Part shown: positions 6,131 to 14,807 of the stretch, in pieces
Layout: the number at the start of each line of letters is the position of its first letter
How positions within the stretch are numbered: position 1 is the stretch's first letter
Source of the DNA: Ramlibacter sp.
GTDB lineage: Bacteria; Pseudomonadota; Gammaproteobacteria; Burkholderiales; Burkholderiaceae_C
Length of the DNA: 32,547 bases
Direction of reading: 5' to 3'
Assembly (NCBI GenBank): GCA_022844525.1
Contig: JALHLO010000015.1
Location: 1-32,547 of the forward strand
Program-made: the position numbers and the translations under genes
Notes under the pieces: model-generated
The model's input: only the letters and a program-made list of their open reading frames with translations
Database searches by the model: none
Told to the model about the DNA's origin: nothing

Positions 6131-6224
6131 GGAGCGATGACCGAGTGGCCGAAGGTGCTCCCCTGCTAAGGGAGTATGCGGGCAAAAACCTGCATCGAGG
6201 GTTCGAATCCCTCTCGCTCCGCCA
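6131..6224 (+). tRNA. tRNA-Ser (anticodon GCU)
   Basis: The cloverleaf can be folded by eye. The acceptor stem pairs GGAGCGA (6131-6137) with TCGCTCC (6214-6220), followed by discriminator G6221 and an encoded CCA (6222-6224). The anticodon stem is CTCCC/GGGAG (6158-6162 and 6170-6174) with loop CTGCTAA; the anticodon GCT at 6165-6167 reads AGC/AGU serine codons. A long variable arm follows (class II tRNA), as required for serine. The T-loop GGTTCGAATCC is at 6200-6210. Confidence 0.98.
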
Positions 6225-6439: not shown

Positions 6440-6453
6440 CTGACCCACATCAA
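6440..6453 (+). promoter_or_regulatory. FNR/Anr-like box upstream of the decaheme cytochrome gene
   Basis: CTGACCCACATCAA matches the FNR consensus TTGAT-N4-ATCAA at 8 of 10 positions, with a perfect right half. It resembles the better site before the monoheme cytochrome: 13 of 15 bases are identical when the following G is included. A -10-like TTATCT at 6493-6498 would place the box near -58, roughly a class I position. Functional status is inferred. Confidence 0.45.
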
Positions 6454-6546
6454 GCAAGTGGCAAAAGCTGGGCCGGAGCAGCACTGGTTTTCTTATCTCT
6501 GCCTTAAGGTGCACGGTAACAAGTGGCGACAAGGAGCGAGGTGACC

Positions 6547-7548
6547 ATGAACAACATCCGAAAGGCGCTGGGGGTGCTCGCACTCCTGTTCGGCGCCGCA
6601 AGCACGGCGCCGGCCCTGGCCGCACCCAACAACCTGCCCGAACTCGGCGCGGGTCCGGCGGCCAAGGCCGCCATCGCGCAGGACAAGCTGCGCAAGGACG
6701 CCGTGTGCACCCGCTGCCACGACGAGACGGAGCAGGCACCGATCCTGTCCCTGTACCAGACCAAGCACGGTGTGCGCGGCGATGCCCGCACGCCCTCGTG
6801 CCAGTCCTGCCACGGGGAGAGCGACGCGCACGTCAAGGCACCCAGCGGCGGCGGCACCGGCGGCAAGCGACCGCCGCCGGACGTGCAGTTCAAGAAGGGC
6901 GGCGCCTACCCGGTGTCGCACGACAAGGCGCGCGGCCAGACCTGCCTGACCTGCCACGACGGCGGCAACCGCACCCACTGGGACGGCGCGCAGCATGACC
7001 GCAGCGGCGTCGCCTGCAACGACTGCCACCAGGTGCACAAGCCGAAGGACCGGATGCTGGCCAAGGCCACGCAACCGGAGGTCTGCTACACCTGCCACAA
7101 GAAGCAGCGCGCCGAAACGCACCGGGTGTCCACGCATCCGATCGACGCCGGCAAGGTCACCTGCTCGGACTGCCACAACCCGCACGGTTCCACCGGCGAG
7201 AAGCTGGTGAAGAAGAACAACGTCAACGAGACCTGCTTCAGCTGCCACGCCGAGAAGCGCGGCCCCTTCCTGTGGCAGCACACCTCGGCCAACGACGACT
7301 GCATGAACTGCCACACGCCGCACGGCTCCACGGTGTCGCCGCTGCTGAAGGCGCGCGGCCCCTGGCTGTGCCAGCAGTGCCACGGCGAGGTCGCCCAGCA
7401 TCCGGGCGCCATCTACAGCGGCGCCAGCATCCCCGGCGGTCCGCAGGGAGCCCAGCCGCCCTCGCAGATCGCCTTCCGCGGCTGCGTGAACTGCCACAAC
7501 GCGATCCACGGGTCCAACCACCCGGCCGGCCGCTCGTTCCTGCGCTAG
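6547..7548 (+). CDS. mtoA: Decaheme c-type cytochrome, MtrA/MtoA/DmsE family
   Basis: Periplasmic multiheme cytochrome that sits inside the outer-membrane porin and passes electrons across the outer membrane. It is 333 aa, the same length as Shewanella MtrA. The signal peptide is residues 1-~25 (NNIRKALGV...PALA). Ten CXXCH heme sites start at residues 54, 85, 133, 157, 180, 206, 230, 252, 275 and 313. The ATG at 6547 is preferred over the GTG at 6523 because it begins the signal peptide and has GAGG five bases upstream. The porin gene follows 29 bp later. DmsE-type paralogs serve extracellular DMSO reduction, but no dmsAB lies here. With the linked cymA and monoheme genes the closest named layout is mtoA-mtoB-cymA-mtoD. 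Direction of electron flow cannot be read from sequence. Confidence 0.95.
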   Translation: MNNIRKALGVLALLFGAASTAPALAAPNNLPELGAGPAAKAAIAQDKLRKDAVCTRCHDETEQAPILSLYQTKHGVRGDARTPSCQSCHGESDAHVKAPSGGGTGGKRPPPDVQFKKGGAYPVSHDKARGQTCLTCHDGGNRTHWDGAQHDRSGVACNDCHQVHKPKDRMLAKATQPEVCYTCHKKQRAETHRVSTHPIDAGKVTCSDCHNPHGSTGEKLVKKNNVNETCFSCHAEKRGPFLWQHTSANDDCMNCHTPHGSTVSPLLKARGPWLCQQCHGEVAQHPGAIYSGASIPGGPQGAQPPSQIAFRGCVNCHNAIHGSNHPAGRSFLR

Positions 7549-7577
7549 CGCACGGCAAGAAAGACAGGAGAAGAGAA

Positions 7578-9926
7578 ATGGCACACAACCACAGGCCGCC
7601 CCTGGCGCTTCGCGCCCTGGTCGTCGCGCTCCACGGAGCGCTGGCCCTGTCCGCATCCGTCGGCTACGCGCAGGCGCCCGCCCCGGCCGGGCAGGCCCCG
7701 TCCGGGCCGTCCTTCGACGATCCGGCCGTGCAGGAACTGGTCCGCCCGACCAACACCATCGAAGCCGGCGTGATCGCCGTCGACAGCCCCTCCTTCAAGT
7801 TCGGCGAGTACAACGGCCTGCACCGCGAGGGCGTGCGCCCGCTGCTGGACTTCGACGTCCGAGGCGGCGGCGCCTACCGGCCCGAAACGGGCAGCACCCA
7901 GCGCTGGCAGGTCTACGGCTCGCGGCTCGGCCTGCCCGTGCGCAACTTCGGCGGCGAGTTCGCCGAGCAGGGCTCGTGGCGCATCGGCTTCGACTACGAC
8001 GAGCTGCAGCGCAACTTCGCCGACGACTACCTCACGATCTATCGCGGCGCCGGCACGGCCACGCTCACGCTGGCGCCCGCCTTTCCGGGCAACAACAACA
8101 TCCAGACGGCCGCGACGGCCGCGAGGATCGCGACGGACTCGACCCGCCACGACCTGCAGACCCAGCGCCGCCGCCTGGGCCTGTCCGGCGAGGTGATCCT
8201 CTCGCCGGTGTGGAGCCTCAGCGTGGGCGCCCGCCACGAGAAGAAGGACGGTACCAAGTTCACCGGCGTCGCCTACGGCGGCCAGCGCGGGACCTTCCTG
8301 CCCGAGCCGATCGACTACGAGACCAACATCGTCGAGACGGCACTGCGCTATCGCCGCGGCAACGACGCCCACCTGACCCTGGGCTACAACATCTCGCTGT
8401 TCACCAACCGCACGGATGCCTGGAGCGCGCAGAACCCCTTCGCCAACAACGCCACCTTCAACAACCGGGTGGTGATGAGCGGGGCGCCGGACAACTCGAT
8501 GCACCAGCTCACCGCGGATGGCGGCTGGCGCTTCAGCCCGGCCACGAAGCTGTCCGTCTCCGCGGCCTACGCGAAGATGAAGCAGAACGAGGACTTCCGC
8601 TTCCAGCAGCATCCCGGCCAGATCGTCAACAACGGCGCCACCCGGGTCGACGCCGAGCAAGTGCAGCAGAACTTCCTGGCGCGCCTGAACCACGCGGTGT
8701 CGCGCGCCTTCGACGTGACCGGCCTGTTCCGCTATGAACACCGGGACACGCGCACGCCCGTCGGCACCTACGCGTTCGCCGCGGCCGACCCGACCGCGAC
8801 ACCGCCCCTGGCGGCGAACCGCGTCGTGAACAACCTGCCGCAGAACCGCCGGCAGTCCACCTTCGCGGTGGACGGCAGGTACAACCTCCAGCCGGGCAGC
8901 ATCGTCACCGCCGGCGTCGAGCACCAGCGCATCCACCGCAGCGTCGACGGCCCGGTCAACCCCCTGGTTTCTCAGGAGAACCCCTTCCTGTCCGGCGAGG
9001 CGACGCAGAACACGGTGCGGGTGGGCTACCGCCAGTCCTTCAACGAAGCCCTGAACGGGCAGATCAACGTGTCCCATTCGCGCCGCGAAGCCGGCCCGTA
9101 CTTCGACTTCCCGCCGACCGGCACGGCGGCCGCCCCGGTGTTCCCGCAGGTGCCCGGCTTCCGCCAGTTCTTCCTGGCGTCGCGCGACCAGGACAAGGTG
9201 CGCGCCTCGGTCGACTACCAGGCGACCGAAGCCTGGTCGGTGCAGGGCTCCCTCGAGTACCAGCAGGACCGCTACCGGGAGTCGACCTATGGCCTGCAGC
9301 GCTCCGGCATGACGACGCTGACGCTGGACAGCACCTACGCGGCCAGCGACAAGCTCAGCTTCAACGGCTTCGTCTCGCTGGAAGACGGCGAGACCCGCGC
9401 GCGGTACTACCACCTGGCGAGCGGCACGGCCACCCTGGGCTATACCGTCAACCCGGCGTGCCCGGCGACCCTGCCGGCGGGCGGTCCTTCCGGCAACATG
9501 GCCGACCCCTGCCGGCAATGGAGCGTGACACAGGGCGACCGCGTCTGGACCTTCGGCCTGGGCGCGAAGTCGGCGGGACACCTGGGCGGCAAGCTGACGC
9601 TGACGGGCGACGTGCAGCACTCCCGTGCCCGCACCGACATCCTGTTCAGCGGCGGCACCTACTCCAGCGCCCGGGTGTTCCAGCCGGCGTTGAACATGCC
9701 GACCATCACCAGCCGGATGACCGACTTCCAGTTCGGCGCCCGCTACGAGCTGAAGAAGGAATCGGCCGTGCGCCTGGGCTACCTGCACCGCCGCCTGCAC
9801 TCGTCCGATCCGCAGTTCGACCTGTTCGGGCTGACCACCGTCAACAACTTCATCGGTAACGGCATGAACTCGCCCCGTTACAAGGTGCATGCAATCAGCG
9901 TGAGCTATGTCCACACCTTCCGATAA
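7578..9926 (+). CDS. mtoB: Outer-membrane beta-barrel porin of decaheme conduit, MtrB/MtoB/PioB family
   Basis: Large outer-membrane barrel that sheathes the decaheme cytochrome. It is 782 aa from ATG 7578 (AGGAGAAGAG just upstream). A signal peptide ends near SVGYAQA (~residue 34). The rest shows alternating aromatic/polar strands with Gly/Asn/Asp turns, recurrent motifs such as LTADGGWRFSPATKLSVSAAYAKM, and a C-terminal strand ending YVHTFR. The MtrB/PioB signature region near the mature N-terminus is present (TIEAGVIAVDSPSFKFGEYNGL). The N-terminal CXXC pair of Shewanella MtrB is absent; the only cysteines visible flank one loop near residues 635-655. Its end overlaps the next gene by 20 bp. 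Confidence 0.93.
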   Translation: MAHNHRPPLALRALVVALHGALALSASVGYAQAPAPAGQAPSGPSFDDPAVQELVRPTNTIEAGVIAVDSPSFKFGEYNGLHREGVRPLLDFDVRGGGAYRPETGSTQRWQVYGSRLGLPVRNFGGEFAEQGSWRIGFDYDELQRNFADDYLTIYRGAGTATLTLAPAFPGNNNIQTAATAARIATDSTRHDLQTQRRRLGLSGEVILSPVWSLSVGARHEKKDGTKFTGVAYGGQRGTFLPEPIDYETNIVETALRYRRGNDAHLTLGYNISLFTNRTDAWSAQNPFANNATFNNRVVMSGAPDNSMHQLTADGGWRFSPATKLSVSAAYAKMKQNEDFRFQQHPGQIVNNGATRVDAEQVQQNFLARLNHAVSRAFDVTGLFRYEHRDTRTPVGTYAFAAADPTATPPLAANRVVNNLPQNRRQSTFAVDGRYNLQPGSIVTAGVEHQRIHRSVDGPVNPLVSQENPFLSGEATQNTVRVGYRQSFNEALNGQINVSHSRREAGPYFDFPPTGTAAAPVFPQVPGFRQFFLASRDQDKVRASVDYQATEAWSVQGSLEYQQDRYRESTYGLQRSGMTTLTLDSTYAASDKLSFNGFVSLEDGETRARYYHLASGTATLGYTVNPACPATLPAGGPSGNMADPCRQWSVTQGDRVWTFGLGAKSAGHLGGKLTLTGDVQHSRARTDILFSGGTYSSARVFQPALNMPTITSRMTDFQFGARYELKKESAVRLGYLHRRLHSSDPQFDLFGLTTVNNFIGNGMNSPRYKVHAISVSYVHTFR

Positions 9927-10524
9927 GAACGACCTCCCCGCCGGCGGGAAGAAGCCCGGGTTCTTCGCGCGCATGCGCACGGGCACGAAGCTGTCCATGC
10001 TGCTCGTGCCGGTGGCGTTCTTCCTGGGCGGCATCATGTTCTGGGGCGGATTCAACTGGGGGATGGAAGCCACCAACACCATGGCGTTCTGCACCGGCTG
10101 CCACGAGATGCGCGACAACGTGTACGCCGAGTACAAGGACACCATCCACTACAGCAACCGCACCGGCGTGCGGGCGAAGTGCTCGGACTGCCACGTGCCG
10201 CACGAGTGGGGGCCCAAGATGGTCCGCAAGATCCAGGCGAGCAAGGAGATCTGGGGCAAGCTCACCGGCTACATCGACACCAAGGAGAAGTTCGAGAAGC
10301 ACCGCATGGAGATGGCCACCCACGAGTGGGAGCGCATGAAGCGCAACAACTCGCAGGAGTGCCGCAACTGCCACAGCTTCGAGGCCATGAGCAAGGACCT
10401 GCAGAAGGCCACGCCGTACAAGAAGCACATGCAGGGCCAGAAGGAGGGCAAGACGTGCATCGACTGCCACAAGGGCATCGCGCACGCGCTGCCCAAGGAA
10501 TACAAGGATCCGGAGGAAGAGTAA
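9907..10524 (+). CDS. cymA: Tetraheme NapC/NirT-family cytochrome c (CymA-type quinol dehydrogenase)
   Basis: Inner-membrane-anchored cytochrome that exchanges electrons between the quinone pool and periplasmic carriers. It is 205 aa. A single membrane segment spans ~31-50 (SMLLVPVAFFLGGIMFWGGFN), then the periplasmic domain with four CXXCH sites at 62, 92, 152 and 184. The ATNTMAFCTGCHEM and YSNRTGVRAKCSDCHVP blocks are typical of NapC/NirT proteins. Its ATG lies within the last 20 bp of the porin gene, so the two are probably translationally coupled. It could also serve other periplasmic reductases, but the context points to the decaheme conduit. In an Fe(II)-oxidising system it would run in reverse, reducing quinone. 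Confidence 0.94.
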   Translation: MSTPSDKNDLPAGGKKPGFFARMRTGTKLSMLLVPVAFFLGGIMFWGGFNWGMEATNTMAFCTGCHEMRDNVYAEYKDTIHYSNRTGVRAKCSDCHVPHEWGPKMVRKIQASKEIWGKLTGYIDTKEKFEKHRMEMATHEWERMKRNNSQECRNCHSFEAMSKDLQKATPYKKHMQGQKEGKTCIDCHKGIAHALPKEYKDPEEE

Positions 10525-10548
10525 AGCACGGGCAGGGATGGGCCGCGG

Positions 10549-10562
10549 CTGATCGACATCAA
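10549..10562 (+). promoter_or_regulatory. FNR/Anr box, class II geometry, upstream of monoheme cytochrome
   Basis: CTGATCGACATCAA matches TTGAT-N4-ATCAA at 9 of 10 informative positions. A -10-like TAGACT at 10584-10589 follows, placing the box centre (10555.5) at about -40.5, close to the -41.5 of class II FNR-activated promoters, which lack a -35 element. The gene starts at 10617. This is strong positional support for anaerobic or micro-oxic activation, though unproven. Confidence 0.65.
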
Positions 10563-10616
10563 GTGGACCGTGCCCCTCCTGGCTAGACTCGATCCCGAAC
10601 CAACTGGAGTGCCAAC

Positions 10617-10976
10617 ATGCAACATGTCCGTTTACTGCTCGTGACCGCCGCCGCGTTCGCCGGCCTGGCCCTGCCGCTGGCCAGCCAGGCCGTCGACGTG
10701 GAAGCCGCACTCGCGCTGCAGCGCCAGAACAACTGCAACAAGTGCCACCACATGGAGCGCGAGAAGGAAGGCCCGTCCTTCCGCAAGATCGCCGAGAAGT
10801 ACAAGGGCAAGCCCGACGCCGAAGCCAAGCTGGTGTCGCACCTGACCAGCTCGCCCAAGGTCAAGCTGGCCGACGGCACCGAGGAAGAGCACAAGGTGAT
10901 CGCCACCCGTCCCGCCAAGGACATGGCGCAGGTGAAGAACCTGGTGCAGTACATTCTGGAACAGACCAAGAAGTAA
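10617..10976 (+). CDS. mtoD: Monoheme class I cytochrome c, MtoD-like periplasmic electron shuttle
   Basis: Small soluble periplasmic cytochrome, 119 aa. The signal peptide ends at LASQA (~25). One CXXCH site, CNKCH, is at 40-44, followed by GPSFRKIAEKYKG, a class I cytochrome c core resembling c551/c4 domains, and a C-terminal helix NLVQYILEQ. The residue usually providing the distal Met (the PMPP-type loop) is not recognisable. The equivalent stretch reads EEHKVIATRP, with His92 as a candidate ligand and Met103 as an alternative inside the helix. It follows cymA by 92 bp with its own FNR-type promoter. In Sideroxydans a monoheme cytochrome in this place, MtoD, carries electrons between the outer-membrane conduit and inner-membrane partners. 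ACTGGAG before ATG supports the start. Confidence 0.9.
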   Translation: MQHVRLLLVTAAAFAGLALPLASQAVDVEAALALQRQNNCNKCHHMEREKEGPSFRKIAEKYKGKPDAEAKLVSHLTSSPKVKLADGTEEEHKVIATRPAKDMAQVKNLVQYILEQTKK

Positions 10977-10997
10977 GGCGTCCCGCCGCATCACGCC

Positions 10998-11026
10998 GGG
11001 CCGCCTTGCGCGGCCCTTTTTCCTTT
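10998..11026 (+). terminator. Terminator of the cytochrome locus
   Basis: GGGCCGC (10998-11004), loop CTTGC, GCGGCCC (11010-11016), then TTTTTCCTTTT. This is a canonical intrinsic terminator 22 bp after the mtoD-like stop codon, closing the electron-transfer unit. Confidence 0.92.
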
Positions 11027-11042
11027 TCGCTCCCTCCCGCCC

Positions 11043-11225
11043 ATGCCGACCGACTTCGCCAGCATCCTGCTGCTGGTGGTGACTTCCGCCATCACCTTCA
11101 CCGTGGCCCGCCTGCTGTCGCGCAACTGGCGCCGCAAGCGGCGCGAGAAGGAGGAAGCGGCGCGCCGCGCCACGGAGACGCGGCAGGTGCGGCGCGCGCG
11201 CGAGCGGCGCCAGGGCTCCAGATAG
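11043..11225 (+). CDS. Hypothetical 60-aa single-pass membrane protein
   Basis: I do not recognise this gene. It encodes 60 aa: a hydrophobic segment (~6-24, ASILLLVVTSAITFTVARLL) followed by a strongly basic tail rich in Arg, Lys and Glu (RRKRREKEEAARRATETRQ), predicted to be a cytoplasmic helix. It begins 17 bp after the cytochrome terminator with no good ribosome-binding site upstream (CTCCCTCCCGCCC), which lowers confidence. It ends directly at a hairpin. It may be an inner-membrane microprotein; alternatively it is a chance frame in GC-rich DNA. Confidence 0.4.
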   Translation: MPTDFASILLLVVTSAITFTVARLLSRNWRRKRREKEEAARRATETRQVRRARERRQGSR

Positions 11226-11253
11226 AAAAAGAAAAGCCGCCCCGAGGGGCGGC
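11226..11253 (-). terminator. Terminator for the leftward transport genes
   Basis: Read on the minus strand: GCCGCCC stem, CTCG loop, GGGCGGC, then TTTTCTTTTT. It lies 25 bp past the stop of the small leftward ORF (11278) and at the end of the TRAP permease unit. On the plus strand the hairpin touches the stop of the 60-aa ORF but has only a weak T-tail. Confidence 0.85.
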
Positions 11254-11277
11254 CCTTCACTCCCGAACGCGTCCTTG

Positions 11278-11454
11278 TTATTTCTGCGCGGAGGGCTTGT
11301 CGCCCGCCTTGCCGCGGCCATTGCGCCGGCGCTCGCCGGCTGCCTCGGGCCTGCGCGTTCCGCCGGCCCGCAACTCCAGGCCATAGGAACTCGCCGTCAC
11401 CGCCAGGATGACCGGCACCCGCTGCAGGATGGTCGTCGTTCTCGTCTCGTTCAT
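11278..11454 (-). CDS. Hypothetical 58-aa protein downstream of TRAP permease
   Basis: I do not recognise this gene. From ATG at 11454-11452 it encodes 58 aa: MNETRTTTILQRVPV with a short hydrophobic stretch (VPVILAVTASSYGLEL), then an Arg/Gly/Ala-rich basic tail ending PSAQK. It lies 106 bp beyond the TRAP permease stop on the same strand, and the terminator follows 25 bp after its own stop, which supports it being part of a transcript. The open frame extends upstream to an ATG at 11577, overlapping the permease end, but that extension is low-complexity and Arg-rich. Only AAGAAG precedes the chosen ATG. Confidence 0.5.
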   Translation of the reverse strand: MNETRTTTILQRVPVILAVTASSYGLELRAGGTRRPEAAGERRRNGRGKAGDKPSAQK

Positions 11455-11560
11455 CTTCTTGTCGTCCCTGTACTTCTGTCGTCTCTTCGTGTGACTGCGG
11501 TGCGGGGGAGTATGGGTGCCTCGGCGGGGGCGACCTGCCAGCTTCGGGCGCCTGCGCAGG

Positions 11561-13786
11561 TCAGCGGTATCTGACATCCAGCTCGGCCGCGGAGGGCGGC
11601 AGCAGGGCCCGCCTGCGCGCGGCGAGCTGCCGCACGAGCACGGGAAGCACCAGCGCCGCGCCCGCCAGCGTCACCCAGAGCCCGGGCGCGATCAGCAGCA
11701 CGGCGGCCGCGAGGCACAGCAGCTGTTCCCAGCGCTTCATCTCGGCCAGCATGAAGCGGCTGAGCGCGGCGGCCAGCACCGTGATGCCCAGCACGCAGCC
11801 GATGAAGGTGATGGCGAAGTCCTGCAGCGTGAACCCCCTGGCCACCAGCAGCAGCGAGGGCGAGAACACGAACACGAAGGGCACCAGGGCCTTGGCGAGC
11901 CCCAGGCGGAAGGCGGTGTTGCCGGTCTTGAACGGGTCGCTGCCCGCCATGCCGGCGGCCGCGTACGCGGCCAGCGCCACGGGTGGCGTGATGTCCGCGA
12001 GCACGCCGTAGTAGAAGACGAAGAAGTGCGCCACGAGCGGCTCCACGCCCAGCTGCACCAGCGTCGGCGCTGCGACCGTCACCATGATGATGTAGTTGGC
12101 CGTGGTCGGGATGCCGCAGCCCATGAGGATGCACACGAGCCCGGTCATCACCAGCGCGGCGAACAGCGTGAGGGTCCTCATGTCCGCCATCACGGACGGG
12201 ATCACGGCCGAGAGGCCGCCCGCGATCGCCTGCGCCCAGCCGGTGATGATGAAACTGATCTTGAAACCGACGCCGGTGAGCGTCACCACGCCGATGACGA
12301 TGCCCACGGTCGCCGCCGCGGCCCCCACCGCCAGCGCGTACTTGGCGCCGGTCTCGAGCGCTTCCACCAGCACGCCGTGGCCGATGCGGCCCGTGATGCC
12401 GGCCAGCTTCCAGGCAGCCAGCGCGATCGCCACGCCGGCGGCGAACAGCGCCATCTTCAGCGTGTCGGTGTTCACGCCGAGGTCGGCGAACACGATCACG
12501 CCGAGCAACGCGTGCAGCACCGCGCACAGCGCCCAGTTGGCCGTCCGGTTGCCGCTCACGCGCGTGGTCAGGCCCACGATCACGCAGGAGGTGATGCCGC
12601 TGAAGGCAGCGAGGTAGGGGGTGCGGCCCGACACCAGGATGAAGATCAGCAGGAACAGCGGGATCAGCGTCGGCCAGCGCTGCCGGAGCGATTCGCGCAG
12701 CTTCGGCATCTCCTCCTCGGTGAGGCCGCGCAGGCCGTGCCGCCTGGCCTCGAAGTGCACCTGCATGAACACGCCGAAGAAGTGCATGAAGGCCGGCACC
12801 ACCGCCGCCGCGATGATGGTCTGGTAGGAGACGTTGAGGAACTCCACCATCAGGAAGGCCGCCGCGCCCAGCACCGGCGGCGTGATCTGCCCGCCGGTGG
12901 AGGAAGCCGCTTCCACCGCGCCGGCGAACTCGCGCCGGTAGCCCACGCGGATCATGGCGGGAATGGTGAGCGAGCCCACCGTCACCGCGTTGGCCACCGA
13001 GGACCCCGACAGCATGCCGAACATCGCGGAGCCGAACACGCTCACCTTGGCGGGGCCGCCGGCGTAGCGGCCGGCGATGGTGGCGGCGATGTCCAGGAAC
13101 AGCTGTCCGAGGCCGATGCGCGTGGCCAGCACGCCGAACAGCACGAAGTGGAAGACGTAGGTCGCCACCACCCCGATCGCGACGCCGTAGATGCCCTGGC
13201 TGGTGAGGTACTGGTGGTTGATCATCTGGCTCCAGCTGGAGCCCGCGTGCTTGAGCAGCCCGGGGAACAGGGGGCCGGCCATCGCATAGGCGGTGAAGCC
13301 CAGCGCGATCAGCGGCAGCGGCCAGCCCATGGAGCGGCGCGTCGCCTCCAGCAGCGTGAGGAACAGGACGGACCCCATCACCACGTCCAGCGTGTCCGGG
13401 TTGCCGACGCGGAAGGCGAGGTCGTCGAACACCCAGGGGATGTAGAGCACGCTCAGTGCGCAGGCGATGGCCAGCGCCCAGTCCGTCAGCGGCACGCCGC
13501 CCGGCGAATGCCAGCCCGCGGCCACCGGGCTGTCGTAGGTGCGGCGGCTGCGCGGGAACACCAGGAAGATCAGGCCCAGAACGAAGGCCATGTGCACGCC
13601 GCGGTGCGTGGTCTCGCGCAGCAGGCCGAAGCCGGCCGTGTAGTAGTGGAAGAGGGACAGCGCGATCAGCAGCGCCATCACCAGCCAGGTCGCCGGCGGC
13701 ACGGTGGGCCGGAACCGGATCTCCGGATCGAACTTCTCCTCCAGCTCCTGCAGCTTGCGCTCGTCCAGCGCCATGGCGGTCGTCAT
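11561..13786 (-). CDS. TRAP transporter fused permease subunit (4TM/12TM, TAXI-associated)
   Basis: Membrane component of a TAXI-type TRAP transporter, fusing the small (4-TM) and large (12-TM) subunits; it uses an ion gradient to import the organic acid delivered by the periplasmic receptor. It is 741 aa with many hydrophobic segments. Typical DctM-like motifs are SGSSVANAVTVGSLTIPAMIRVGYRREFAGAVEAASSTGGQITPPVLGAAAF near 220-300 and GCGIPTTANYI plus ADITPPVALAAYAAAGMAGSDPF in the C-terminal half. The N-terminal ~30 residues are cytoplasmic. ATG 13786 has AGAAGGA upstream; the internal Met5 (13774) is an alternative. The substrate is unknown. It is preceded by the receptor gene with a hairpin between. 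Confidence 0.95.
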   Translation of the reverse strand: MTTAMALDERKLQELEEKFDPEIRFRPTVPPATWLVMALLIALSLFHYYTAGFGLLRETTHRGVHMAFVLGLIFLVFPRSRRTYDSPVAAGWHSPGGVPLTDWALAIACALSVLYIPWVFDDLAFRVGNPDTLDVVMGSVLFLTLLEATRRSMGWPLPLIALGFTAYAMAGPLFPGLLKHAGSSWSQMINHQYLTSQGIYGVAIGVVATYVFHFVLFGVLATRIGLGQLFLDIAATIAGRYAGGPAKVSVFGSAMFGMLSGSSVANAVTVGSLTIPAMIRVGYRREFAGAVEAASSTGGQITPPVLGAAAFLMVEFLNVSYQTIIAAAVVPAFMHFFGVFMQVHFEARRHGLRGLTEEEMPKLRESLRQRWPTLIPLFLLIFILVSGRTPYLAAFSGITSCVIVGLTTRVSGNRTANWALCAVLHALLGVIVFADLGVNTDTLKMALFAAGVAIALAAWKLAGITGRIGHGVLVEALETGAKYALAVGAAAATVGIVIGVVTLTGVGFKISFIITGWAQAIAGGLSAVIPSVMADMRTLTLFAALVMTGLVCILMGCGIPTTANYIIMVTVAAPTLVQLGVEPLVAHFFVFYYGVLADITPPVALAAYAAAGMAGSDPFKTGNTAFRLGLAKALVPFVFVFSPSLLLVARGFTLQDFAITFIGCVLGITVLAAALSRFMLAEMKRWEQLLCLAAAVLLIAPGLWVTLAGAALVLPVLVRQLAARRRALLPPSAAELDVRYR

Positions 13787-13803
13787 GCGTTGCGTCCTTC
13801 TCC

Positions 13804-13834
13804 AAACGAAAACAGGGAGGTGCTGCCTCCCTGT
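13804..13834 (-). terminator. Hairpin with T-tail between TAXI receptor and TRAP permease
   Basis: On the minus strand ACAGGGAGG, loop CAGCA, CCTCCCTGT is followed by TTTTCGTTT. This is a 9-bp perfect stem with a T-rich tail, 19 bp after the receptor stop and before the permease ribosome-binding site. It should act as a partial terminator and 3'-end protector, giving more receptor than permease mRNA. Confidence 0.8.
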
Positions 13835-13853
13835 CGTGCTCCCCGCGCAGGCC

Positions 13854-14807
13854 TTACTTCAGCAGGCCCGCTTCCTTGTAGAACTTCTCGGCACCCGGGT
13901 GGAAGGGGATGCCCACGCCCTGCACCGCATTCTGCTTGGTGATGAACTTGCCCTTGGCATGGCCGGCGGCCAGCGACTTCTGGGTCTGGTCGCTGTACAT
14001 GGCCTTGGTGATCTCGTAGACGGTGTCGGCCGAGACCTTCGCGCTGGTCACCAGCTGCGCGCCGACGGCGAGCGTCTGCACCGCGGGCACGTCCTTGTAG
14101 GTGTTGGCGGCGATGTTGTCCACCGCGAAGTAGGGGTTCTGCTTGCGCAGGGCCTCGGCCGGCGCGCCGGTCAGCGGCACCAGTTCGATGCCGACGCCGC
14201 TGGAGGCGAGTTCGGCGATGGCGCCGGCGGGCGCGCCGCCGACGAAGAAGAAGGCGTCGAGCGAGCCGTCCTTGAGCTTGTCGCCGGCCTGGTTCGGCTT
14301 GATGAAGTCCGGCTTGATGTCGGACTCCTTGACGCCGTAGGCGGCCAGCACCATGCGGGCGTTGATCAGCGTGCCGGAGCCGGGTTCGTCCAGCGCCACG
14401 CGCTTGCCCTTGAGGTCGGCGACGCTCTTGATGCCCGAGCCCTTCTTCACCACCAGGTGGATGCTCTCGGGATACAGGTTGGCGATCATGCGCAGGTCGC
14501 CGACCTTGGGCTTGCCTTCGAAGGCGCCGGTGCCGGTGTAGGCCCAGGTGGCGACGTCGGACTGCGAGAAGCCCGCTTCCATCGAGCCGCTGGCGACCGC
14601 GTTGACGTTGGCGAGCGAGCCGTTGCTGGCCTGCGCGGTGGCGATGATCTTGCCCGGCTGCGACACCGCGTTGGCGATCATGCCGCCCACGGGGTAGTAG
14701 GTGCCGGCGGTGCCGCCGGTACCGATGCGGAAGAACTGCTGCGCGTGCGCGCTTGAGGCGAAGGCCAGCGCGGCGACGGCGGCCGCGGCCCACTTCTGGA
14801 TGCTCAT
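13854..14807 (-). CDS. TAXI-family TRAP transporter solute receptor
   Basis: Periplasmic binding protein of the TRAP-TAXI system, 317 aa. The ATG at 14807 is supported by AGGAG six bases upstream. A further Met ten codons upstream (14837) is unlikely, because the signal peptide MSIQKWAAAAVAALAFASSAHA begins here. The mature protein opens QQFFRIGTGGTAGTYYPVGGMIANAVS, the hallmark of TAXI receptors. Further typical segments are AQASNGSLANVNAVASGSMEAGFSQSDVA, LYPESIHLVV and FHPGAEKFYKEAG near the C-terminus. The ligand cannot be predicted; characterised TAXI systems include glutamate and 2-oxoglutarate receptors. It is transcribed with the fused permease. Confidence 0.96.
   Translation of the reverse strand: MSIQKWAAAAVAALAFASSAHAQQFFRIGTGGTAGTYYPVGGMIANAVSQPGKIIATAQASNGSLANVNAVASGSMEAGFSQSDVATWAYTGTGAFEGKPKVGDLRMIANLYPESIHLVVKKGSGIKSVADLKGKRVALDEPGSGTLINARMVLAAYGVKESDIKPDFIKPNQAGDKLKDGSLDAFFFVGGAPAGAIAELASSGVGIELVPLTGAPAEALRKQNPYFAVDNIAANTYKDVPAVQTLAVGAQLVTSAKVSADTVYEITKAMYSDQTQKSLAAGHAKGKFITKQNAVQGVGIPFHPGAEKFYKEAGLLK

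Follow-up and report, generated by a model that had tools for sequence, protein, structure and literature searches.

A putative Mto-type electron conduit with a rearranged gene order in a Ramlibacter genome

Introduction

The window analysed here, a stretch of 32,547 nucleotides from the draft genome of a Ramlibacter sp., contains a run of cytochrome and porin genes. Do these genes encode a conduit that carries electrons across the outer membrane, and if so, in which direction? Taken together, the sequence data lead us to propose that the locus codes for a conduit of the Mto type, which in this Ramlibacter would carry electrons across the outer membrane, mainly inward; to this reading we assign a probability of roughly two in three (0.68). 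The assignment to the Mto type is based on a predicted barrel fold that resembles a chain of the Mtr complex, on the similarity of the monoheme cytochrome to MtoD of Sideroxydans ES-1, and on the lack of any MtrC-family or DmsA match over cut-off.

Gene content and layout of the locus

The cluster occupies positions 6547-10976 of the plus strand and consists of four co-directional genes (Table 1). Their products are, in this order, a decaheme cytochrome, an outer-membrane barrel, a tetraheme protein of the NapC/NirT type and a cytochrome with a single heme; a terminator-like hairpin comes after the last gene. All four products were present on this strand as the original prediction had described them, and so was the closing terminator with its T-run; over the whole region, nine terminator-like sites were found as against 4.5 expected from shuffled sequences. 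The locus had been placed from position 6440 onwards, but the ATG of its first gene is at 6547. The ATG of the tetraheme gene (9907) overlaps the 3' end of the barrel gene (9926).

Table 1. Features of the cluster and of its upstream flank, as positions in the window
Feature	Positions	Strand	Size and evidence
tRNA-Ser (gct), in the flank between lysC and the cluster, outside the system	6131..6224	+	
mtoA-like, decaheme periplasmic cytochrome	6547..7548	+	333 aa, 10 CXXCH; TIGR03508, 6r2q chain A
mtoB-like, outer-membrane barrel	7578..9926	+	782 aa; PF11854, TIGR03509, AlphaFold2, Foldseek
imoA-like, tetraheme NapC/NirT quinone oxidoreductase	9907..10524	+	205 aa, 4 CXXCH; PF03264, CXXCHXM, tree
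mtoD-like, monoheme class I cytochrome	10617..10976	+	119 aa; PF00034, 4xxl_A, His44/His92
Terminator-like hairpin and T-run at the end of the cluster	10998..11016	+	sequence scan

The cluster is preceded by lysC and a tRNA-Ser (gct) gene and followed by a convergent TRAP/TAXI gene pair. The same four genes, in identical order and in the same place between lysC/tRNA-Ser (gct) and TRAP/TAXI, were found in R. montanisoli B156, with identities to the window of 90% for the decaheme, 75% for the barrel (over 451 columns), 87% for the tetraheme and 82% for the monoheme protein. This agreement in order, place and sequence indicates that the arrangement seen in the window is not due to chance. The tRNA-Ser gene (6131-6224) stands directly upstream of the window cluster; tRNA genes are a common kind of integration site.

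It could be argued that the cluster is no more than a remnant, in decay or not expressed. In R. montanisoli B156, mtoB reads in three frames (L050, about 9000-11411), most congeners are devoid of the genes, and a simple scan of the cluster for a sigma-70-like promoter found none. Among 60 genomes of the genus, any decaheme match was obtained in 17, and one of at least 60% identity in five, the host included. However, the four open reading frames picked in the window are all open, their heme motifs are intact and their third-position G+C is 0.89-0.96. As Oxford Nanopore MinION reads underlie the R. montanisoli assembly (PMC9705899, partial text), the frame changes in its mtoB may be sequencing errors, or else the gene may be broken in that strain. 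For the window cluster we regard decay or silence as very unlikely.

The decaheme and barrel proteins

The decaheme protein scored 272 bits against TIGR03508 (cut-off 192). Its match to chain A of 6r2q ('Structure of the Mtr complex') reached 224 bits, and 317 bits in a profile search; this chain, which bears a different molecule name in the structure listing, we take to be MtrA. All ten CXXCH motifs were invariant in an alignment of 12 sequences. The first heme cysteine is residue 54, and the 53 residues which precede it have, as judged by eye, a signal-peptide-like N-terminus. An AlphaFold2 model of this protein had a mean pLDDT of 39 and was set aside.

The barrel protein scored 392 bits against PF11854 and 346 bits against TIGR03509 (cut-off 240). 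Its AlphaFold2 model (mean pLDDT 79) contains 26 strands of at least eight residues, the strand number of the MtrB barrel. In a Foldseek search with this model the best match was 6r2q_B, presumably MtrB, with an E value of 2.3e-43 and a TM score of 0.90 by target length; the runner-up was at 2.2e-10. In the solved Mtr complex, chains A and B are accordingly the nearest structural relatives of the two proteins, and they, together with the family scores, support the earlier description of the pair as an MtrAB/MtoAB-type conduit.

Since the NCBIfam name of the decaheme model (TIGR03508) is 'DmsE family', a DmsEF-type conduit that works for a terminal reductase outside the cell was also considered. 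That name presumably spans the whole MtrA/MtoA group and does not discriminate within it. No DmsA (TIGR02166) was found over cut-off in any of four genomes, namely the host, R. montanisoli, R. albus and the Ramlibacter genome G010, the best score being 194 against 778 bits; weaker molybdopterin relatives were present in this search, and one control genome did exceed the cut-off. No reductase is encoded among the four cluster genes, and the partners of the conduit are of the MtoD and ImoA types. A DmsEF function is, in our judgement, extremely improbable.

In a decaheme tree of 101 rows, which included Sideroxydans sequences but not ES-1 itself, the window protein formed one clade (100/99) with that of R. 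montanisoli and the two R. albus copies. This clade fell outside a 49-row clade (99/96) holding Sideroxydans, Gallionellaceae and canonical Comamonadaceae sequences as well as a fourth Ramlibacter decaheme, that of G010. It also fell outside a 13-row clade (94/90) containing those congeners whose decaheme genes have 10-heme, MtrC-sized neighbours. Joining the Ramlibacter decahemes to 12 members of the 49-row clade was not rejected (p-AU 0.44), in a test which used a quick tree and 92 of the 101 rows, nine long-branch or fragmentary rows being left out by choice and the group being chosen once the tree had been seen.

Two side observations were made among the relatives. A locus on a contig titled Desulfovibrionaceae (L103) has the order mtoD-mtoA-imoA-mtoB, and its decaheme pairs with a betaproteobacterial one (100/99), which may reflect a transfer or a binning error. 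In a further congener (G012, L048), two open reading frames with overlapping ends (7582-9642 and 9558-13871; 686 and 1437 aa) contain 24 and 52 CXXCH motifs, the latter in near-identical repeats; both encode giant multiheme cytochromes.

The tetraheme protein

The tetraheme protein, which matched PF03264 with 249 bits and has a hydrophobic stretch at its N-terminus, had been predicted to be of the CymA type. Its heme I motif is CXXCHXM, as in 33 of the 39 NapC-type proteins examined, its own included. This motif is present in ImoA and not in CymA (PMC13390432), whose heme I lacks the methionine that the window protein has, so that the gene is better described as imoA-like. In an ImoA tree, the protein fell within an Mto clade of 17 rows (98/95), most of them from Comamonadaceae.

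The trees suggested that the cluster might be a mosaic, with the decaheme and the ImoA and MtoD proteins drawn from different lineages, as the Ramlibacter rows lie outside the canonical clade in the decaheme tree (99/96) and inside it in the ImoA tree. This idea was not upheld: of the alternative placements of the decaheme and of MtoD that were tested, none was rejected (p-AU).

The monoheme protein and the position of its gene

The monoheme protein matched PF00034 with 31 bits. Its best match among solved structures was MtoD of ES-1 (4xxl_A, 113.6 bits; the next match scored 73.8 bits), and its His44 and His92 align with the MtoD heme ligands His47 and His95, the second of which is kept in that alignment column in 69 of 74 MtoD-like rows. 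Its naming as mtoD thus stands. In MtoD trees, the window and R. montanisoli proteins grouped with those of MtrC-cluster types (96 SH-aLRT in a quick tree, 98/86 in a careful one). Constraining them to 16 canonical rows gave a p-AU of 0.41, and to 13 MtrC-cluster-type rows one of 0.12; neither was rejected. These tests kept 69 of 78 rows, nine having been excluded beforehand, and the groups were named after the trees had been seen.

The order mtoA-mtoB-cymA-mtoD had been equated with that of Sideroxydans. In ES-1 the order is in fact mtoD (Slit_2498), mtoA (2497), mtoB (2496), cymA/imoA (2495) and pmcA (2494) (PMC4412085, partial text; PMC13390432). Gene order was surveyed in 96 sources, made up of the window, 15 loci from other relatives and 80 named loci (L050-L129), the last being the best-scoring 80 among 565 relatives. 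L031 and L032, copies of L050 and L051, were left out, as was L048, which is not a cluster; L044 had no decaheme by the filter applied. The survey yielded 98 clusters, a few of them weak. An MtoD-like gene occurred within 67 of these, and mtoD stood immediately before an mtoA in 53; in one locus (L078) it lies between two mtoAB pairs. In only two of the 98, those of the window and of R. montanisoli, did mtoD immediately follow a NapC-type gene, the R. montanisoli cluster being scored as B-A-B-N4-D owing to its split barrel gene. A bare mtoA-mtoB pair made up 25 clusters, nine of which had less than 1 kb of contig on one side. The R. albus locus (L051:4306-12073) consists of mtoD, a tandem mtoA-mtoB-mtoA-mtoB and imoA.

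A NapC-type gene followed mtoB in 28 cases, in 23 of which at least 800 bases lay beyond it. Open reading frames for c-type cytochromes (at least 70 aa, same strand, within 1.5 kb past imoA) were seen in two of these 23, namely, as before, in the clusters of the window and of R. montanisoli. As the remaining 21 had none, a PmcA gene after imoA is a mark of ES-1 and not a general feature of the family. No PmcA-type (His/Met) monoheme gene follows imoA in the window cluster, where the sole monoheme protein is of the MtoD type, and the locus, which had been called complete, is in this respect a cluster devoid of PmcA.

This bears on the possible path of electrons in the periplasm. In ES-1, PmcA binds both MtoA and ImoA, and MtoD bound neither (PMC13390432, 2026), which suggests that MtoA and ImoA may have a partner other than MtoD, the only shuttle encoded in the window cluster. 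In Shewanella, MtoD could take electrons from CymA and hand them to MtrA (PMC13390432). Either the Ramlibacter MtoD behaves differently from that of ES-1, or another periplasmic cytochrome acts as the shuttle. A cluster that is without PmcA and keeps MtoD could serve as a test of the ES-1 model, in which PmcA and not MtoD is the partner of MtoA and ImoA (PMC13390432), and a comparison of the proteins from ES-1 and Ramlibacter would show if MtoD truly belongs to the pathway.

Genome context

The host genome is a 4.2-Mb draft in 384 contigs, 92% complete and with 5.4% contamination, and absences from it are accordingly soft. The predicted lack of an outer-surface MtrC/OmcA agreed with our search, as no match to the MtrC family (TIGR03507) exceeded the cut-off in this 92% complete draft, in a search that had no positive control among its 14 control genomes. 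An 18.5-bit match to TIGR03507 was rejected as an MtrC candidate; its site is a 361-aa open reading frame with four CXXCH motifs, on a contig with genes which by resemblance are of the cytochrome-maturation type. For menaquinone the search covered the MenD route, and no MenD match exceeded the cut-off in any of the same four genomes; no NiFe hydrogenase was found in them either.

The window had been taken to come from an organic-acid-using heterotroph; the rest of the genome does not bear out a purely heterotrophic life. Another contig of the host (C114, L135) encodes the large and small chains of RuBisCO, a phosphoribulokinase, a LysR regulator and an AAA protein taken as CbbX, and SoxB was found in three of the four genomes, the host included. 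C114 appears native, given that its G+C content (69.8%) is close to that of the window (69.3%) and that its RuBisCO large chain is 98% identical to a congener's. This capacity for carbon fixation is invisible from the window alone. Only the host among the four genomes has RuBisCO and phosphoribulokinase. Of the other carriers searched, the three nearest (G014, G016 and G010) had no RuBisCO and a fourth (G066) gave only a lower-scoring, 243-bit family match; carbon fixation thus does not travel with the locus. Of 59 genomes sampled across the genus, 19 gave a RuBisCO-family match over cut-off. The presence of SoxB makes thiosulfate another possible electron donor, also for carbon fixation.

Proposed function and direction of electron flow

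Judging from homology and from the lack of an MtrC-family or MenD match over cut-off, we propose the following complex, route, direction and donors. The decaheme MtoA would be held inside the 26-strand MtoB barrel and would accept electrons from an external donor at the cell surface, for which Fe(II), mineral-bound Fe(II), Mn(II) and reduced humics are candidates. Periplasmic cytochromes would relay these electrons onward from MtoA; MtoD, the sole monoheme protein encoded in the cluster, might pass them to acceptors of high potential, a terminal oxidase for example, and the ImoA-type tetraheme protein, anchored in the membrane, may exchange electrons with the ubiquinone pool. The description of R. 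montanisoli B156 as oxidase-negative (PMC9705899, partial text) lends no help to a path that would lead from MtoD to a cytochrome oxidase.

An inward direction is favoured by the combination of ubiquinone as the probable sole quinone and the lack of an MtrC match over cut-off. In the available part of its description (PMC9705899), R. montanisoli has ubiquinone-8 as its sole quinone and is strictly aerobic. MtoA of ES-1 has been linked to magnetite oxidation (PMC12016527, partial text). The RuBisCO contig of the host and the lack of a NiFe hydrogenase in the four genomes also speak for the proposed reading. On the other side, MtrAB cores can run either way, and MtoA and PioA form no function-specific clade (PMC8805035, partial text); SoxB as a source of another donor, the patchy occurrence of RuBisCO among carriers and the position of the decaheme outside the clade with Sideroxydans likewise count against it.

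One possible alternative is that the conduit works outward, the ImoA-type protein oxidising ubiquinol and MtoAB then reducing external humics, Fe(III) or Mn(IV) under low oxygen. In Shewanella, ImoA can stand in for CymA and supply current to an electrode (PMC13390432). Respiration without oxygen would also be possible in view of a host contig (C226) with a molybdopterin protein, taken as NapA, beside a second NapC-type gene, and in view of the nitrate reduction described for R. montanisoli (PMC9705899, partial text). Against this stand the searches for an MtrC-family protein and for MenD, neither of which gave a match over cut-off, and the fact that R. montanisoli, the nearest described relative, did not grow anaerobically (same source, partial text). 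We consider outward flow unlikely, and prefer the inward reading.

A broader scenario, which we put forward tentatively and hold to be doubtful as a whole, is that the host is a facultative lithoautotroph that obtains external electrons through MtoAB, with MtoD as the sole dedicated shuttle and no PmcA. MtoD, whose gene lies behind imoA in the slot that pmcA has in ES-1, might then have taken over the role of shuttle to a high-potential oxidase in aerobes that have only ubiquinone.

Comparison with known systems

The inward conduit proposed here would extend the Mto type to Ramlibacter, a genus described as aerobic and with ubiquinone-8 (PMC9705899, partial text); one carrier, R. montanisoli, is present in culture collections. 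Electron-transfer proteins have been mentioned for Ramlibacter, and rbcL/S for a Ramlibacter MAG (PMC11366258, partial text). In the open-licence literature, screened mostly at the level of listings, no report of a rearranged Ramlibacter Mto cluster devoid of PmcA was found.

PioAB of Rhodopseudomonas palustris TIE-1 is likewise a two-part conduit without MtrC that serves electron uptake. PioA differs in having a long N-terminal extension, which is removed (PMC6831781, partial text), whereas only 53 residues precede the first heme of the window decaheme; no PioC-like gene is found among the four cluster genes. Within the genus itself, the mtrCAB genes of R. lithotrophicus RBP-2, like those of other Burkholderiales, encode an MtrAB-type core, often with mtoC/mtoD neighbours, and in RBP-2 were expressed with Mn(II) in coculture (PMC8805035, partial text). 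Clusters of this type possess an outer-surface MtrC, in contrast to the host, whose draft genome has none over cut-off. In five congeners the decaheme gene has 10-heme neighbours of MtrC size, as judged from heme number and length alone; these five decahemes make up a clade (100/100) separate from that of the window.

The cluster of R. albus GTP1 (L051) comprises the same gene types and is, by tree path, the nearest named relative after R. montanisoli for both MtoA and ImoA. Its order is similar to that of ES-1 with a tandem mtoAB, mtoD being first where in the window it is last, and it adjoins response-regulator-like and, by resemblance, cytochrome-maturation-type genes, not lysC as in the window.

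Also among the closest known systems is the Mto cluster of Sideroxydans lithotrophicus ES-1 (slit_2494-2498), which shares with the window a decaheme and an MtrB-type barrel, an ImoA-type protein with the CXXCHXM motif, a bis-His MtoD and a cluster without MtrC. ES-1 has no menaquinone genes (PMC13390432), and the window genome likewise has no MenD over cut-off. The two differ in that mtoD comes first in ES-1 and last in the window, and in that ES-1 has a pmcA gene which the window cluster lacks; ES-1 also has Cyc2. Betaproteobacterial Mto clusters and Ramlibacter mtrCAB having already been published, the window cluster is a further example, with a rearranged gene order.
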